A stretch of DNA of 64,000 bases from Deltaproteobacteria bacterium. Lineage in GTDB: Bacteria > Desulfobacterota > DSM-4660 > Desulfatiglandales > Desulfatiglandaceae. How positions within the stretch are numbered: position 1 is the stretch's first letter; each line of letters begins with the position of its first letter. The notes under the pieces were generated by a model that was given only the letters and a program-made list of their open reading frames with translations, was not told the origin of the DNA and did no database searches. Positions 33,164 through 43,288 of this stretch are shown in pieces. Where the stretch lies: assembly GCA_019310785.1 (NCBI GenBank), contig JAFDDR010000006.1, forward strand, positions 1 through 64,000. Reading direction: 5' to 3'. The translations under genes and the position numbers were made by a program.

Positions 33164-35522
33164 ATGTCTGAAAACCACGAACCTCTAAAAGAAGCCCTCT
33201 CTTTCATGGAACGGGTGTTCGGATTTCATGAGTTCAGACCGGGCCAGGATGAGATATTAGAATCAGTGCTGGATGGTTCGGACAGCCTGGTGATCATGCC
33301 CACGGGCGGGGGAAAATCCCTGTGTTACCAGGTTCCCGCATTCATAAGACCCGGGATTACCCTGGTCATTTCTCCTCTTATTGCCCTTATGAAAGACCAG
33401 GTGGACTCGCTTCGGGTCCTGGATCTGCCGGTTGACGCCGTTCATAGCCTCATGGGACTCGGAGAACAAGAAAATACCCTCCTTAAGATTTCCGAAGGTA
33501 AAACCAGGTTAGTGTACGCCTCGCCCGAAAGGCTCAGAAACCAGAGATTTATGGACGCGCTCAGTCAAAATACGGTTTCCATGGTGGCCGTGGATGAAGC
33601 CCACTGCATTTCCCAGTGGGGGCATGATTTCAGGCCCGACTATTTGAGAATCAGCCATGCCATTGAGGCCATTGGCAGGCCACAGGTCATTGCGCTTACC
33701 GCCACGGCCACGGAAAAGGTCCGTTCGGATATTGTCCAGCAATTGAAATTGAAGGCCCCAAGGGTCTTTGTTACCGGGTTTGACCGACGTAATCTTTTCT
33801 GGGAGGTACGGCAGTGCGCGGATGAAAAGGAAAAAAAAAATAGCAGTATTGGAAGAACGTCTCTTAAACCTTTCAGGCGCTGCCATTGTCTACACCGGGA
33901 CCAGAAAAAACGTAGAGCGCACTGTCCAAAAGCTCAATAAGGGCAATTTAAAGGCCAGGGCATACCATGCCGGGTTGGATGAGGCCGAGCGAACCCGGGT
34001 TCAGGAAAACTTCATGGAGGGCCGATCCGACCTCGTGGTAGCAACAAATGCCTTTGGCATGGGAATCGACCGTTCGGATATTCGTATGGTCATCCATCAC
34101 ACCTTTCCCGGAACCATCGAGGCATACTACCAGGAGGGTGGCCGTGCGGGCCGGGACGGAGAACCGGCTACCTGTTTGCTCCTGTACACACCTTCCGACA
34201 GGATGCTTCAGGAATTTTTTATAGACTCGCGGTACCCACCTCGTGAAATAGTGTTTCAGGTCTATGATTGTCTGCTACACCGTCAGGAGGAACTTTTGTG
34301 GTTGACTTATCGTGAAATCGGGATGTTGGGCGATGAGAAAATTCCTGATCTGACAGTGGGATCGTGCATCAAGATCTTAGAAGACGCATCTGCCGTTAAG
34401 AGACTTCACCGTTACGATAACCAGGCCGAGCTTTATCTTAAGAAAAACCCTCAAATCCTTATCAATGAACTCACATCAAGGGCAAAAAACAGGAAAAAGC
34501 TCCTTCAAAACCTTGAACGCATTTACGGAGATGATCAACTCACAAACGGGATCCAGTTTCTCCCCGCTGAACTGGCAAAGAGAACTGATCTATCCATAGA
34601 CGCCCTGAGAAGGTGTTTTCTGCAAATGGAGTCCGAAGGCGCTATTACCTATATCCCTCCCTTCCGCGGCAGGGGACTCCGTGTCCTCAAACGCGTAAAA
34701 CCTGAAGAACTTGAAATCGATTTTCATGCACTAAAGGTTCGCAAGGCATATGAACTGACTAAACTGGATCAGGTGATGGACTATGCCACAACAGAAAGAT
34801 GCCGCCGCAGCTTTTTGGTCGGCTATTTTGGGGAGTCCGCAAAAGGGGATAACTGCGGGGCCTGTGATCGCTGTAAGACGCGCGAAACGCGCGCCGTTTC
34901 TCACAAAAATGGTACCGATCCCATCTTAGCCGTCAAGGTCCTGAGTGGTGTGGCCCGATTGAAAGGGCGATTCGGTACCGGCATGGCGGCCAAAGTGCTC
35001 ACAGGGTCCAAAGATCGCATGCTTTTCCAGTTCAGGCTTCAGCATCTTTCCACGTATGGTCTCCTTTCAGACTATACACAGGCCCAGGTGCAGGACTGGA
35101 TCAAGGAACTCATTTCAAAAGGGTGTCTTGTTTCACGCCGAACTTTTATAGGTGAAAAAAACTACCCTGTCCTGGAACTCACTGACCGGGGATTTCGTGT
35201 TATGGGAGGAGATGAAGAAATTTATCTCTCACCCGCTGTGATAGAACAAAAGGCGGTCCGGCCGGAATCCATAACGCTTCACGGCATCGAAATGGAAACC
35301 TTTGCCCGGCTCCGTGAATTACGCGCACGCTTAGCCAAAGAAGAAAAACTACCCTCTTACTGCATCTTCCATGACCGGACACTTCGGGAAATGACCCGTG
35401 CCCTTCCGGGAACCCCGGAAGAACTCCTTCGTGTTACAGGTGTTGGAGAAGTAACTCTGAGGAAGTATGGGCAGGCGTTCTTGAAGGTATTGAGAGAAAT
35501 AAAAGACGAGAAGTCAGGCTAA
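33164..35522 (+). pseudogene. recQ: RecQ-family ATP-dependent DNA helicase, frame-disrupted into two ORFs
   Basis: ORF 33164-33940 has the N-terminal motifs (MPTGGGKSLCYQ, DEAHCISQWGHDFRPDY, ALTATAT); ORF 33768-35522 carries the rest (GMGIDRSDIRMVIHHTFPGTIEAYYQEGGRAGRDG, zinc-binding cysteines, HRDC-like C-term). They join as DEKEKKIAVLEERL if the A10 run at 33831-33840 is read as A9. Confidence 0.88.
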
Positions 35523-35737: not shown

Positions 35738-37369
35738 ATGAAATTCATTCCTTCCCAAATCCTTTACTTTACTCGAAGCAGAACAACAAAGAGGAACGTC
35801 AAGCTTCTATTCAAGTTCCTTTTGGCGTTGACAATGCTGGTGGTAATATACAGCGTTTTGTTTCATTTCATAATGCTTTTTGAAGAAAAGGAGTTTAGCT
35901 GGATTACAGGTTTCTATTGGACACTCACTGTGATGTCCACGCTTGGCTTCGGCATTCTTTTTCTTCTTGTCATGTTGCCCTTTACCTTCATTCAATTTTT
36001 TTATGCCCCATGGCTTGAAGCCCAATCAAGGGCCAAAACTCCGCGGGAATTGCCGGAAGGCACAACAGGACACGTGATACTGACAAGCTTTGATCCCATA
36101 ACCATAAACCTCGTAGAAAAACTAAAGAAATATGATTATGAATATGCTATTATCGCCACTGATTTTCAACGTGCGTTAGAACTTTATGATTTGAACTTCA
36201 AGGTGGTCGTTGGAGATCTGGGTGATCCGGAAACATATAAACGTCTCCGCATACAAAATGCTGCCATGCTGGTCGCCAACAACGATGATATGACCAACAC
36301 AAATATATCCTTTACGGTCAGGGAGGTCTCTGAAAAAGTACCCGTCGTTACTAATGCAGATGCGGATGATTCCATCGATATTTTGCAGCTTGCCGGCAGC
36401 ACTTATGTCTTTCAGTTTATGAAGATGCTTGGGGAATCCTTAGCGCGAAGAACGCTCGGAATGAGTATGGGGGCAAATGTTATCGGAAGATTCGATCAAC
36501 TTCTCATCGCCGAAGCACCTGCAATGCGAACACCACTTGAGGGAAAAACCCTCATTCAAAGCAATCTGCGAGAAAAAACCGGCGTAACAGTTGTCGGGCT
36601 TTGGGAGAGAGGCCGATTTAAAATGCCTCAGCCACAGACTCGAATCGATTCCACGACTGTGCTCGTGCTTGCCGGTTCGGCTGAACAGCTCGAAAAATAT
36701 GACGAGGTCTTCTCCATTTACCGTGTTTATCACACCGCCGATGCTCCTGTTCTCATATTGGGTGGCGGCCGTGTCGGGCATGCAGCGGCACAGATCCTGG
36801 AAGAGCGACAGATTGTTTATAAGGTTGTGGAGAAGAATCCGAAATTTATTCAAAATAATAAGTATATTCAAGGAAATGCTGCCGATCTTGATATCTTGAG
36901 TCAGGCCGGCATACGGGAAGCTTCATCTGTCATTATTACCACTCATGATGACTCCATGAATATTTATCTCACCATCTATTGCCGTCAACTGCGATCCGAT
37001 ATACAGATTATCAGCAGGGCAAATCTGGACGGAAATATTTCCAAACTGCACAGGGCTGGAGCAGACATTGTCATGGCACATGCTTCCATGGGAGCAAATA
37101 CCATAATTAATCTTCTAAAACCCAATAAAATACTGATGTTTGCAGAAGGACTGAACATCTTCCGCGCGTCGGTACACTCATCCCTTGCGGGCAAAACTCT
37201 TGCTGAAAGTCAAATCCGGAAACAAACGGGCTGCAGCGTAATAGCTATTGGTAGGGAGAATAAATTGAATATCAACCCCGAACCCTCGATTCTTCTTGGG
37301 GAACATGATGAAATGGTCTTGATTGGGACGAGCGATGCTGAAAAACGTCTTATGGAGATCTATCAATAA
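35738..37369 (+). CDS. TrkA/RCK-type potassium channel protein with two RCK modules and a shortened pore domain
   Basis: FYWTLTVMSTLGFG directly followed by ILFLLVMLPFTFIQFFYAPWLEAQ; two TrkA-N modules (VILTSFDPITINLVEKL; LILGGGRVGHAAAQILEER) with TrkA-C segments. Confidence 0.88.
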   Translation: MKFIPSQILYFTRSRTTKRNVKLLFKFLLALTMLVVIYSVLFHFIMLFEEKEFSWITGFYWTLTVMSTLGFGILFLLVMLPFTFIQFFYAPWLEAQSRAKTPRELPEGTTGHVILTSFDPITINLVEKLKKYDYEYAIIATDFQRALELYDLNFKVVVGDLGDPETYKRLRIQNAAMLVANNDDMTNTNISFTVREVSEKVPVVTNADADDSIDILQLAGSTYVFQFMKMLGESLARRTLGMSMGANVIGRFDQLLIAEAPAMRTPLEGKTLIQSNLREKTGVTVVGLWERGRFKMPQPQTRIDSTTVLVLAGSAEQLEKYDEVFSIYRVYHTADAPVLILGGGRVGHAAAQILEERQIVYKVVEKNPKFIQNNKYIQGNAADLDILSQAGIREASSVIITTHDDSMNIYLTIYCRQLRSDIQIISRANLDGNISKLHRAGADIVMAHASMGANTIINLLKPNKILMFAEGLNIFRASVHSSLAGKTLAESQIRKQTGCSVIAIGRENKLNINPEPSILLGEHDEMVLIGTSDAEKRLMEIYQ

Positions 37370-37411
37370 CCATCGAGCCATTGCAAAGCTCTGGACGGGA
37401 ACAAAGAGATA

Positions 37412-39508
37412 ATGGGTTCTATACAGCAATCAGTAGTAAAAATCACCGCTAACCAAAAAATTGGATTATTAGTTCCTTATGTAAAGGAACGAATAACAGC
37501 GCAGATTAAAGCCATAGCGCTTATAGTTATTTATTTAATTTGTTTTCAAACTATTGTTTTAAACATTGCCATTAGTGAAGCTGCGATCGTTGCAACAGGA
37601 ATTGCCGTGGTAGTTCTTGGCCTGGCCTTTTTTATGGAAGGGCTCTTCTTAGGTTTAATGCCTTTAGGCGAGGTTATTGGGATTAAACTGCCACAAAAAA
37701 CCAAACTGCCCATCATATTAACCTTTGCTTTTATTTTGGGTTTAGGTGCAACTTTTGCCGAACCCGCTATCGGCATATTAAAGACTGCCGGCGCATATGT
37801 AAAGGCCTGGGATGCACCTTTACTCTTTCTGCTTTTAAATAAATATTCCAATTATCTTGTGTATTCAGTAGGCGTGGGTGTTGGCATCGCTGTGTTGTTC
37901 GGTATGCTCAGATTTATGTATGGGTGGTCATTAAAGCCTTTTATTTATATTTTGGTTGGCATTCTTTCGGCTTTTTCTATCTGGGCACTTTTTCAGCCCA
38001 ATATGAAATTCTTAACAGGCCTGGCGTGGGATTGCGGCGCTGTCACTACAGGGCCTGTAACAGTTCCCCTGGTCCTGGCGCTGGGCATCGGAATCTGTAG
38101 AATTGTAAGCAGTGGAACTTCAGAGTCTTCCGGTCTTGGCGTAGTGACGCTTGCATCGTTATTCCCAATCTTAGCAGTACTGTCTTTAGGCGCTCTTTAT
38201 CTCAACCATGTCCCTCAGCCTATGGAAGAAGCCAAATTCTTTGCTAAAGAAAATCAAACCAAGATATTGAATATGTTTAATGACAAAAATGAGATGATTG
38301 GTTATGCATTGCGAAATGCCCAACCAAACAGTCAAATGGCTCTTTTTAACGGCAACCGGGAAAAAATGCTCGAATTTATTGGCAGGTTAAAGAAAGATCC
38401 GATTTTAAGAAAATCTGTTCTTGGAAAAGGAGATATTGAGCATTTGAAAAATTGGGCTGTTCAAAAAGGTACAGAATCACAGAGGTTCGCTATTTTTTCA
38501 GAACCCAACGCCCTTAAAGAGGCAGTAAAAAACTATTCCGGTGTTAAGAATATAATAACCAATCCGGTTGATGTTTTGTTGCGTAATGGCAAGGCTGCTG
38601 TTCAAGCAATCATACCGCTTGCCATATTCTTTTTTCTGGTCTTATTCTTAGTTTTGCGTGAAAAGCTCCCAAGGCCGGATGAAATTATACTGGGAATTAT
38701 TCTGGCTGTTGTTGGCATGGGCCTGTTTAATGTTGGAATTGAATTAGGATTATCAAAGCTCGGCAATAGCGTGGGCACCAATGTCCCTTCTTCTTTTACA
38801 AAGATTCATTTAATTAATGAAAGGCAGACCATTATCAATTTTAATGAGGAGATTGTCCAGACCGCCATAAAGCCGGATGGCAAAAAAGAAATCTTTTTCT
38901 ATGCTAATATTAACGATGAGTATGTGGCTATTCCCTTTGATCAGAGTTCCTACGACCCTTCAAACAAGGAATACATCCATACGCCTACAAAAGGGCCATT
39001 ATTTGGAGGGGAGAAAGGAATATCAGGTTTTTTGGTGGTATTATTATTTGCTTTTGTCATGGGTTATGGTGCGACCTTAGCTGAACCTGCATTAAATGCG
39101 CTGGGTTTAAAAGTAGAGGAATTAACTGTAGGAACATTTAAAAAATCGCTTCTAATACAGGCTGTGGCTTCCGGCGTGGGCCTTGGCATGCTTCTCGGTG
39201 TGGCAAAAATTATCTGGAATGTGCCTTTGGTATATCTGTTATTCCCGCCATACCTTTTACTCCTGATTATTACGAAAATATCCACTGAGGAATTTGTGAA
39301 TATAGCATGGGATAGTGCAGGGGTTACAACAGGACCGATCACTGTACCTTTAGTGCTTGCCATAGGATTGGGGATAGGCAAACAGGTGAACGTAGTAGAG
39401 GGTTTTGGCATATTATCCATGGCATCGGTTTGCCCAATACTGGCAGTGCTTACGGTTGGACTTTATGTAAACAAGAAAAGAAAGGCTATACGGCAGGAAA
39501 GTGCCTAA
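37412..39508 (+). CDS. DUF1538 family membrane protein with two homologous halves
   Basis: Duplicated motifs: FILGLGATFAEPAIGIL and FVMGYGATLAEPALNAL; AWDCGAVTTGPVTVPLVLALGIGI and AWDSAGVTTGPITVPLVLAIGLGI. Confidence 0.85.
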   Translation: MGSIQQSVVKITANQKIGLLVPYVKERITAQIKAIALIVIYLICFQTIVLNIAISEAAIVATGIAVVVLGLAFFMEGLFLGLMPLGEVIGIKLPQKTKLPIILTFAFILGLGATFAEPAIGILKTAGAYVKAWDAPLLFLLLNKYSNYLVYSVGVGVGIAVLFGMLRFMYGWSLKPFIYILVGILSAFSIWALFQPNMKFLTGLAWDCGAVTTGPVTVPLVLALGIGICRIVSSGTSESSGLGVVTLASLFPILAVLSLGALYLNHVPQPMEEAKFFAKENQTKILNMFNDKNEMIGYALRNAQPNSQMALFNGNREKMLEFIGRLKKDPILRKSVLGKGDIEHLKNWAVQKGTESQRFAIFSEPNALKEAVKNYSGVKNIITNPVDVLLRNGKAAVQAIIPLAIFFFLVLFLVLREKLPRPDEIILGIILAVVGMGLFNVGIELGLSKLGNSVGTNVPSSFTKIHLINERQTIINFNEEIVQTAIKPDGKKEIFFYANINDEYVAIPFDQSSYDPSNKEYIHTPTKGPLFGGEKGISGFLVVLLFAFVMGYGATLAEPALNALGLKVEELTVGTFKKSLLIQAVASGVGLGMLLGVAKIIWNVPLVYLLFPPYLLLLIITKISTEEFVNIAWDSAGVTTGPITVPLVLAIGLGIGKQVNVVEGFGILSMASVCPILAVLTVGLYVNKKRKAIRQESA

Positions 39509-40635
39509 TGGATATTGATAAAAAGGTCGTTGAGATTACGATTGTTGCCAATAAAGAAATAGCGTCAGCCGTCCGCAAAAATCTGGAATCCATAGGCATG
39601 GAATATAGCAATTCCATAGCAGGGCGAAGGGACCTATTGCAGGAGAGGAAAGGCCTGTTAAAAATGTTTGGAACCGGCAAATCCATTCTGTATGATCCCA
39701 TCACCACCATTACATTTTTAGTCTCCTCGGAAATAGAAGGGGAAATTATAAATTTCATAATCAATAAAGGCGGGTTAAATATACCTGGAAGAGGTTCGGT
39801 TTTCAGTAAAGAGGTTACATTGATTAAGGCACATGAACTATGCCAGGAGAATAAAATCCGGAATATCGAAACTAAAATGAGAAGATTATTTAGCGATTTG
39901 ACCGGCATATGCTGCATTGCACAGAAAGGAGATGGGGACCTTTTGGGGAAGGTTGGATTGGAAACGGGCGGTGGGGTTCCGGCAATTACTCTGGGTATTG
40001 GAACCGGTTTAAGAGATAAGATCGGGCTCTGGAGAGTCGCAATCCCTGCCGAAAAAGAAATTGTGAACCTGATTACCACGTCTCATAATGTAGAAAATGT
40101 GATGGAAATGATGATAGATATTGGGGCATTAGATCAGCCGGGGAAGGGTTTTATTTATCTTTATCCCATAAAAATGGGATTAGTCGATGTGAAAGCTTAT
40201 GTGGGATTGAGCCGCCATGCAGCAAGCATTGAACAGATAGTTACAGTAATCGATGAAATAAAAGGAGACACGAGATGGCGTCGGCGTGAATTCTCTAAAT
40301 ATCGATCCGCCGGAAAAAAACGAAAATATTTAAATGATCTTGTGAATTTCACCCTGATTTGCAATGAAGGACGCGCCACGGATTTAATAAAGGCGGCCAT
40401 GAATGCTGGTGCCGGAGGGGCAACAATAAGCAAATTAAAATATCTCTGCACAGAGAAATCAGAGTCCAGGAAAATATCTCCGGCCCGTGAGATTAGCGAG
40501 ATGATTATTTCGGAAAATCAGATTGAAGGAGTCGTGAAAGCACTTGAGGAAAGCGGTGCGTTAGATGAAGACACCTACGGGCAGATGTTCTGCAGTCTGG
40601 TTCCTAAAGCCTACACTTATATGGGAAAAGCTTGA
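39508..40635 (+). CDS. Protein with three tandem PII-like (GlnB-like) domains
   Basis: 375 aa from ATG 39508 (TAATG overlap with the DUF1538 stop). Repeated PII-like C-terminal turns GGLNIPGRGSVF, GALDQPGKGFIY, GALDEDTYGQMF, each after a ferredoxin-like segment. Confidence 0.75.
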   Translation: MDIDKKVVEITIVANKEIASAVRKNLESIGMEYSNSIAGRRDLLQERKGLLKMFGTGKSILYDPITTITFLVSSEIEGEIINFIINKGGLNIPGRGSVFSKEVTLIKAHELCQENKIRNIETKMRRLFSDLTGICCIAQKGDGDLLGKVGLETGGGVPAITLGIGTGLRDKIGLWRVAIPAEKEIVNLITTSHNVENVMEMMIDIGALDQPGKGFIYLYPIKMGLVDVKAYVGLSRHAASIEQIVTVIDEIKGDTRWRRREFSKYRSAGKKRKYLNDLVNFTLICNEGRATDLIKAAMNAGAGGATISKLKYLCTEKSESRKISPAREISEMIISENQIEGVVKALEESGALDEDTYGQMFCSLVPKAYTYMGKA

Positions 40636-41207: not shown

Positions 41208-41591
41208 CTACCAGGCCTTCGTCGCCAAGGCTTCCGGCATAGGGTAATGCTTTTTGTTAAGGCTGAATATCCTTCCTCCGGTCTGTATTACCGTAGCGGC
41301 GAGAATTGCATCGTTGATATCAATCCCGTGGCTCGGCTGCCATTTGCGATATAACGATGCAGCATCATCAATACACCTCTGGTCAACAGGTTCAGTTTTG
41401 AATTGAGACAAAAACAATAGCGTTTCTTCTTCTTCGTCCAGCCGCATGAAAAATACGACTTCTGCCCGTTGCATTATACCTGTCCAGAGTTCGTATTCAT
41501 CTTCATCGCGAAGACGGCGCAAAAAGTTCAGAGCTTTGCGTTTACCTCGAAGATGCCAGATCAGGATGTCAGAATCAATGTAAGCTCTCAT
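41208..41591 (-). CDS. PIN-domain toxin (VapC-like)
   Basis: MRAYIDSDILIWHLRG...DINDAILAATVIQTGGRIFSLNKKHY; start refined from ORF 41208-41672. Confidence 0.85.
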   Translation of the reverse strand: MRAYIDSDILIWHLRGKRKALNFLRRLRDEDEYELWTGIMQRAEVVFFMRLDEEEETLLFLSQFKTEPVDQRCIDDAASLYRKWQPSHGIDINDAILAATVIQTGGRIFSLNKKHYPMPEALATKAW

Positions 41592-41851
41592 TGTTGGTGT
41601 CGCGTCATCGACTGTCGAAATGCTTTGCGCGCCTTTTCCACAACTTGCTGTGCAGGTTCCTTCCGATGCCATGCACCGAATGTTTGTTCAAGCACATCGA
41701 TGTTGTGTTCATCTTCGATCTTGTCTGCATACATTTGAATTGCAGACTCGATAATTTTCTTCTTTGAAGTATGCAAATGCCGCGCAATAAGACCTATACG
41801 TCTAACCGTAACTTCATCAACTCGCGCAGAAAATATTTTGTCCATTACCAT
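41588..41851 (-). CDS. Ribbon-helix-helix-like antitoxin (VapB/CopG-like)
   Basis: 87 aa; MDKIFSARVDEVTVRRIGLIARHLHTSKKKIIESAIQMYADKIED; overlaps the PIN gene start by 4 nt. Confidence 0.8.
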   Translation of the reverse strand: MVMDKIFSARVDEVTVRRIGLIARHLHTSKKKIIESAIQMYADKIEDEHNIDVLEQTFGAWHRKEPAQQVVEKARKAFRQSMTRHQQ

Positions 41852-42019: not shown

Positions 42020-43288
42020 TTATTTACTTTCCTTTTTTACCTTTGCATTCTCTGCCAGTTTTATTTCCACGCCTGCTTCCTTGAGCAGTGCCGCCGCGGT
42101 ACCTTCTTTGTCCTGGGGTAGTACAACCTGATCCGGCTTTAATTCAAGCAGCCACTTTCCTACAAGAAAACCACGCCTGGTTTCTGCCTGCCAGTATGGG
42201 TTTTGAAGGTTTTCCTGCCTGATAATTTTGTTGCTGACACGCTCAATGGTTTCCATCAAAAACCAGGGGGCTTTGGAAAAATGCTCTGCAACCGGTCCCT
42301 CCGGTTCTTTCAGCGGTGTTAGTCTTCGTATGTGCTTTGGTTGGCGGCTGTGTGTTTTGATCCGGGCCATGACCACGCGGGAAAACTGCCTGCATATTTC
42401 ATGCTCCAGCGAGTGAGAGATGCGGTCCGCTAATTCGTGGGAATGGGTTCTCAAAACCACGTCTAAATCTACTATAAATCTTCCTCCGGCATTGCGACTC
42501 AAACACTGTATCACCTTTTTCACTCTTGGATGGGACATCACTAACGAAATTATTTCCCGTTCCGCATCACGGTCAATTGCCTCGTCCATGAGGTCAAGCA
42601 CGGCCCGCAACAGTAACTGGCCGCCCGACCAGAACACAAAAAGGGCCACCGCACCGGCAGCCCATCTATCTAGGTTAAGGCCGAAATAGGCCCCGATCAG
42701 ACTTATTACCACCACGCCGGTGGACATTCCGTCCGCAAGGTAATCCCTGGCGTCCGCCACAAGGGCCGGGGAATGGAACCTCCGTCCCATGCGAAGCTGG
42801 TAAAAGCCGAATGAAAATGTGACAATTAGGCATACAAGAGCCACGGGCAGGGCAAGTTTAACATCGGGCATTGTCCCGGGTCCCAGAAGTGCCCTGCGGC
42901 CTATTTCGTAACCAGCTAAAATAATGGCAATTGAAGTGACTAAGGTTGCAATCGTCTCGGCCTTATAAAGCCCGTATGGAAAGGAGGCGTGACGCCGACC
43001 TGCCAGCCACAGACCGACATATGCGGCACTCGACGCGATAACGTCGGTCGCCGAATGGATTGCGTCGCCCAACAGGGCCGACGACCCTGCCATAATACCT
43101 GCAATACCCTTTCCAAAAGCCAATGACAGGTTGATAAAAACGGAGACGGCTGCCCTTGTGCGGGCCTTTTTTATCTCATCCAGGCCGGATGAACCGTCAG
43201 ACGGAACAGTTTGAACCGCTTGAGTCGTTATTTCTTTGTTGCTTTTCATTTTATCGGGTTCATTTTCTATACTGGTTACGGTGCTCAA
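42020..43288 (-). CDS. Cation diffusion facilitator (CDF) family transporter
   Basis: 422 aa; SALLGDAIHSATDVIASSAAYVGLWLA, LVADARDYLADGMSTGVVVI; SHELADRISHSLEHEI C-terminal domain. Confidence 0.9.
   Translation of the reverse strand: MSTVTSIENEPDKMKSNKEITTQAVQTVPSDGSSGLDEIKKARTRAAVSVFINLSLAFGKGIAGIMAGSSALLGDAIHSATDVIASSAAYVGLWLAGRRHASFPYGLYKAETIATLVTSIAIILAGYEIGRRALLGPGTMPDVKLALPVALVCLIVTFSFGFYQLRMGRRFHSPALVADARDYLADGMSTGVVVISLIGAYFGLNLDRWAAGAVALFVFWSGGQLLLRAVLDLMDEAIDRDAEREIISLVMSHPRVKKVIQCLSRNAGGRFIVDLDVVLRTHSHELADRISHSLEHEICRQFSRVVMARIKTHSRQPKHIRRLTPLKEPEGPVAEHFSKAPWFLMETIERVSNKIIRQENLQNPYWQAETRRGFLVGKWLLELKPDQVVLPQDKEGTAAALLKEAGVEIKLAENAKVKKESK

Follow-up and report, generated by a model that had tools for sequence, protein, structure and literature searches.

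Few signalling proteins are as widespread as PII proteins, and two transporters, AmtB and SbtA, are regulated by their direct docking (PMC10710835). AmtB is a trimeric ammonium channel, and its regulator GlnK, encoded by a gene adjoining that of the transporter, is a homotrimer with sites for ATP/ADP/2-oxoglutarate. SbtB, a PII-like protein with a non-canonical ligand site, controls SbtA, a bicarbonate transporter that is likewise trimeric and belongs to a family other than the one considered here. According to a 2023 review, PII control of transporters seems confined to those working as trimers (PMC10710835). A further non-canonical group, PII-NG, consists of one-domain proteins whose genes are clustered with CzcABC, a proton-driven efflux pump of the RND type that exports heavy metals. 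On the transporter side, the closest described system is UmpAB of Halomonas zhaodongensis, in which UmpA and UmpB, both DUF1538 proteins, are separate chains that form a heterodimer and together confer Na+(Li+,K+)/H+ antiport on Escherichia coli KNabc (PMC5484666). The exchange has been measured for the Halomonas UmpAB only, with a 4.2-kb clone; no PII gene is among the four ORFs listed for it, and the description of the system mentions no PII partner (PMC5484666). Homologues of UmpAB have been proposed to aid the life of cable bacteria in salt water (PMC10030654, PMC12093952).

We will focus here on a locus of a Deltaproteobacteria bacterium, contained in a stretch of 64,000 nucleotides (contig JAFDDR010000006.1) that we call the window. 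Its DUF1538 protein shares with the Halomonas UmpAB the PF07556 domain, the conserved AEPA and D-x-x-x-VTTG motifs and, probably, the seven transmembrane segments per half, but it is a single chain, has two extra domains and is accompanied by a PII partner. As with GlnK and AmtB, a PII-family gene adjoins a transporter gene; the transporter is, however, a predicted antiporter, and the PII protein is a single-chain triple form without the canonical phosphate residues. We establish below the linkage of the two genes, the number of PII domains, their homology and their phylogeny. Our main reading, to which we give a probability of about 0.62, is that the DUF1538 antiporter is gated by a dedicated cytosolic PII-like protein, which here would be a pseudo-trimer held together covalently, with a single conserved sensor domain. 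The features of the locus are the following:

35738..37369, + strand: RCK (TrkA_N/TrkA_C, twice) potassium-channel-like protein, 543 aa (ORF call, Pfam, homologues)
35945..35956, + strand: junction in the RCK pore where 60 nt are deleted in frame (11 homologues keep the missing residues)
37412..39508, + strand: fused DUF1538 (UmpA+UmpB type) predicted antiporter, 698 aa, about 14 predicted transmembrane segments (ORF call, Pfam, NCBIfam, hydropathy)
37469..38212, + strand: N-terminal, UmpA-like half, residues 20-267, with conserved E117 (AEP) and D207 (WDCGAVTTGP) (sequence comparison)
38198..38599, + strand: helical domain separating the two halves, residues 263-396, present in the class of about 700 aa and predicted extracytoplasmic
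38567..39484, + strand: C-terminal, UmpB-like half, residues 386-691, with conserved E558 and D634 (sequence comparison)
38741..39025, + strand: insert within the second half, residues 444-538, rich in beta structure and predicted to be extracytoplasmic
39506..39510, + strand: TAATG, the DUF1538 stop overlapping the PII start (sequence)
39508..40635, + strand: triple PII-like protein, 375 aa (ORF call, alignment, hhalign, locus survey)
39526..39843, + strand: PII-like domain T1, residues 7-112, with a long T-loop and the PGRG B-loop kept (hhalign E 2e-12 against single-domain PII)
39898..40191, + strand: PII-like domain T2, residues 131-228, the most conserved copy and the one taken to be ancestral, with GxGTGxRDK and QPGKG motifs (hhalign E 3.4e-15)
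40192..40335, + strand: conserved linker helix (RHAASIEQI..ID..KG...WR) (alignment, low-confidence model)
40336..40620, + strand: PII-like domain T3, residues 277-371, which has lost the B-loop motif (hhalign E 1.1e-8)

The gene order is the one described in an earlier note on this DNA: the RCK, DUF1538 and PII-like ORFs share the + strand; a gap of 42 nt separates the first two, and the last two meet in the stop/start overlap. The duplicated transporter core that had been proposed for the DUF1538 protein also holds, as it contains two PF07556 stretches (E 3.9e-106, 353.5 bits against a curated Pfam cut-off of 22.6) and each half has one copy of the (T/L)AEPA and AWD(C/S)xxVTTGPxTVPLVLA motifs. 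Simple hydropathy gives seven hydrophobic segments per half. In most split pairs, the same simple measure places the K and R of UmpA on the N-terminal side and those of UmpB on the other, a bias as would be expected for antiparallel halves. The conserved acidic residues of the AEP (E117, E558) and WD (D207, D634) motifs are candidates for cation and proton binding. Against the NCBIfam UmpA and UmpB models, the protein scores 203 and 164 bits, the equivalog cut-offs being 490 and 500; judged by these scores, it is a member of the UmpAB family and not an equivalog. As it falls so far under the cut-offs, its ions may differ from those of UmpAB. The substrate of DUF1538 is nevertheless not as open as the earlier note, which knew of none, had stated, because Na+(Li+,K+)/H+ antiport is a published function of the family (PMC5484666). 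A PDB search returned no solved structure related to DUF1538 by sequence, and the AlphaFold2 model, built from a seven-sequence alignment, is of low confidence (mean pLDDT 44). Relative to the nearest relative (L006), dN/dS is about 0.24 for the DUF1538 gene and about 0.30 for the PII-like gene, so both are under constraint.

The linkage between the two genes was followed in 56 DUF1538 loci from one phylum and from plasmids, a few places or species being counted twice. A PII-like gene is found directly 3', on the same strand and overlapping or at most 190 nt away, in 50 of them, which bears out the idea of a transporter and a PII-like partner forming a unit. In five of the other six, the contig runs out no more than 180 bp from the DUF1538 gene; the sixth (L060) is a fragment of 161 aa. 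The linkage is seen in Thermodesulfobacteriota, Clostridia and Alphaproteobacteria; in the plasmid records with DUF1538, which come from the latter two, the PII gene is present in 9/9, and it is labelled P-II family nitrogen regulator in all seven that are annotated. Since many database records already label the partner P-II, the linkage is visible, yet it is undescribed as far as can be searched: none of the open-licence PMC papers searched links DUF1538 to PII, and it may be mentioned elsewhere.

The PII chains beside DUF1538 have one, two or three domains. Split UmpA and UmpB genes are followed by a one-domain PII (in the window's own genome, C90, and in L049-L051, L053, L107-L118, L121 and L162) or by a two-domain one (L052, L054, L055). 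Fused DUF1538 proteins of about 500 aa have a two-domain PII (L056, L057, L119, L120, L122, L123, L161, L163), and those of about 700 aa have a three-domain PII in 12 of 12 complete cases, while a single fused protein of 557 aa (L104) has a one-domain PII. The triple chain, three modules in one protein as the earlier note had it, is the extreme of a series and not an isolated oddity. Full-length triple proteins (E <= 1e-100) occur in 4 of 297 genomes of the phylum and in 10 of 85 genomes of the class, always at the place of a long DUF1538 gene.

The assignment of three PII-like modules to the 375-aa chain, also made earlier, rests on profile-profile comparison. From an alignment of fifteen triple proteins, each domain was excised and set by hhalign against the one-domain PII-like proteins encoded next to other DUF1538 genes; all three domains match, with the E values listed above, and reversed-sequence controls reach a probability of at most 7%. 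In Pfam, only the third domain of the triple protein matches P-II, at 17.8 bits and under the cut-off of 25, which the one- and two-domain partners pass with 39-49 bits. A PDB search with the one-domain partners finds solved trimeric PII proteins (E 1e-8), while a search with the triple protein itself finds PII only at E >= 0.1. Its AlphaFold2 model shows three beta-alpha-beta-beta-alpha-beta units in order, but with a seven-sequence alignment and a mean pLDDT of 38 the confidence is too low for their packing to be read. Among the triple proteins, 25 of 98 positions are invariant in T2, compared to 7 of 106 in T1 and 14 of 95 in T3.

In a tree of the domains, T1, T2 and T3 each form a single clade (support 100/100), and the triple form therefore has a single origin, from which it was inherited. 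The one-domain PII of L104 joins T2 (100/99), and the L104 antiporter is the next of kin to the long DUF1538 clade; beside G068, the other short relative of that clade, lies a T2-type fragment at a contig edge. Because of these two placements, we consider the middle domain T2 to be ancestral. The flanking copies T1 and T3 would have been added along with the enlargement of the antiporter, some branches of the tree being long.

Taken together, DUF1538 proteins of the UmpAB type would be Na+/K+-proton antiporters, and the gene directly downstream of theirs would encode a cytosolic PII-like protein dedicated to their regulation. This regulator would sense a signal of the cell, most likely a small adenine nucleotide, and its T-loops would dock on the cytoplasmic face of the antiporter, so that cation/proton exchange is slowed or stopped. 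We infer in this way the regulation itself, its ligand and an inhibition rather than an activation. As UmpAB antiport was obtained from a clone in which no PII gene is listed, the PII protein is not needed for transport, which fits a regulator or switch. Usually, three one-domain chains would form this regulator as a homotrimer. The window's lineage has the antiporter halves fused and enlarged and three PII subunits joined, which would give a covalent pseudo-trimer whose middle domain retains the sensor motifs and whose outer two have altered T-loops and loop motifs; an asymmetric antiporter could thus be served by a single regulator, itself asymmetric. The adjacent RCK protein would be part of the same K+/pH homeostasis module, though the window copy has lost some of its pore. 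The strongest form of this proposal, in which an asymmetric covalent pseudo-trimer with one sensing and two specialised outer domains gates a non-trimeric antiporter, and in which the PII-like protein is moreover a general regulator of the whole DUF1538 family, is put forward tentatively, at somewhat less than even odds.

If a family of Na+/K+-proton antiporters present in three or more phyla has a near-obligate PII partner, PII proteins would control ion and pH homeostasis as well as the uptake of nitrogen and carbon, and a PII sensor with its three usually separate subunits in one chain would suggest a little-noticed on/off switching of ion pumps. The chains of one, two and three domains are ready-made constructs with which the purpose of PII's threefold symmetry could be studied, and the linkage gives a reason for testing umpAB together with the missing PII partner.

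The PII-like protein could also regulate DUF1538 while its triple chains associate with each other, as three chains with nine domains or as stacked rings, with no closed pseudo-trimer. Indeed, the two-domain chains, which are found beside DUF1538 in Clostridia and in some Thermodesulfobacteriota, cannot close a trimer alone, and higher assemblies of multi-domain chains must therefore be possible in the family. We nonetheless regard such an assembly as unlikely for the triple form, given that it takes three to close a PII ring, that the three domains have diverged in different ways and that their combination has a single ancient origin.

In the profile of the one-domain partners, the canonical PII phosphate residues K90, R101 and R103 are replaced by I, G and E, so they have no ATP/2-oxoglutarate site of the GlnB/GlnK type. 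This loss would suit a protein that senses cations or metals, or one that serves the antiporter as chaperone or assembly factor, without gating, akin to the CutA1-type role proposed for PII-NG, whose clustering with the proton/metal pump CzcABC led to their being proposed as metal sensors (PMC7726332). However, the root of the T-loop and the GxG of the B-loop, which forms the nucleotide cleft of PII proteins (for the T-loop and cleft geometry, see PMC8395244), are kept in both the one-domain partners and T2, and we find a sensor or chaperone of this kind rather doubtful, a little more so than the multi-chain assembly. The synthesis of c-di-AMP is encoded in the window's genome, and this nucleotide was considered as the specific ligand and rejected: diadenylate cyclase is present in 71 of the 85 class genomes and in 20 of the 24 with DUF1538, and so does not discriminate.

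Members of the same PII-like subgroup are also encoded where there is no DUF1538 gene, from which it follows that the dependence runs from DUF1538 to PII; these might also suggest that the two genes share an operon for their expression only and act separately, which is improbable considering that the linkage spans three phyla, with overlapping genes, that it was kept through fusion and domain multiplication, and that no triple PII was found without a long DUF1538 in the 297 phylum and 85 class genomes.

The stand-alone proteins include some of about 100 aa and of T2 type (L165-L168; LITCIVQRG...GRGTGIR...EKGKGFAFLHK), in several genomes of the phylum, with no DUF1538 near. In another locus (L059:6019-7786), the DUF1538 gene is broken by an internal stop and an intact PII-like gene lies behind it. 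A PII-like gene of the same subgroup is also located 10 nt downstream of a gene for the NhaB Na+/H+ antiporter (L169:3439-5388). As the phylum sample has six true NhaB loci and this arrangement is seen at only one of them, NhaB was rejected as a second regular partner.

The RCK protein has two TrkA_N and two TrkA_C domains (Pfam), as RCK potassium channels do, and it shares with those of the Kch/TrkA type the TLGFG filter. It differs from them by the absence of 20 pore residues, from the end of the selectivity filter to the start of TM2 (GDITFxSDLGKxFSxxVLxSG), which 11 of 11 homologues keep. A short CGGC repeat is found at the junction and the reading frame is kept; the deletion may be genuine or an assembly collapse. 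Real or not, it means that the window copy should not be called a working channel, and the earlier note, which had presented it as a channel, overlooked this loss; the protein encoded here is probably not functional as such. The association of the RCK gene with the transporter-PII pair fares better, as orthologues lie directly 3' of umpA-umpB-PII, on the same strand, in five genomes of the same bacterial family (L152-L156). RCK is upstream of the long antiporter gene in the window and downstream in these five split loci, and in other genomes its orthologue is located elsewhere, apart from umpAB-PII. A fixed cassette of RCK, DUF1538 and PII genes was rejected, as most other long loci have no RCK beside them and the five split ones have it downstream.

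In two of the five genomes, a protein of about 133 aa is encoded between the PII and RCK genes (L155:2023-2424, L156:7674-8075). The one in L155 is a CBS-domain pair (Pfam, E 2.1e-23), hinting at adenine-nucleotide sensing in the module. Close to the cluster, the window also contains a cation efflux (CDF) family gene on the opposite strand (42020-43288, -) and a PIN-domain protein of 153 aa (41208-41851, -) that overlaps a small upstream ORF, resembling a toxin-antitoxin pair. On the other side, a RecQ-type helicase extends over two overlapping ORFs (33164-35522), the first with the DEAD domain and the second with Helicase_C, RQC and HRDC, owing to a frameshift or an assembly error.
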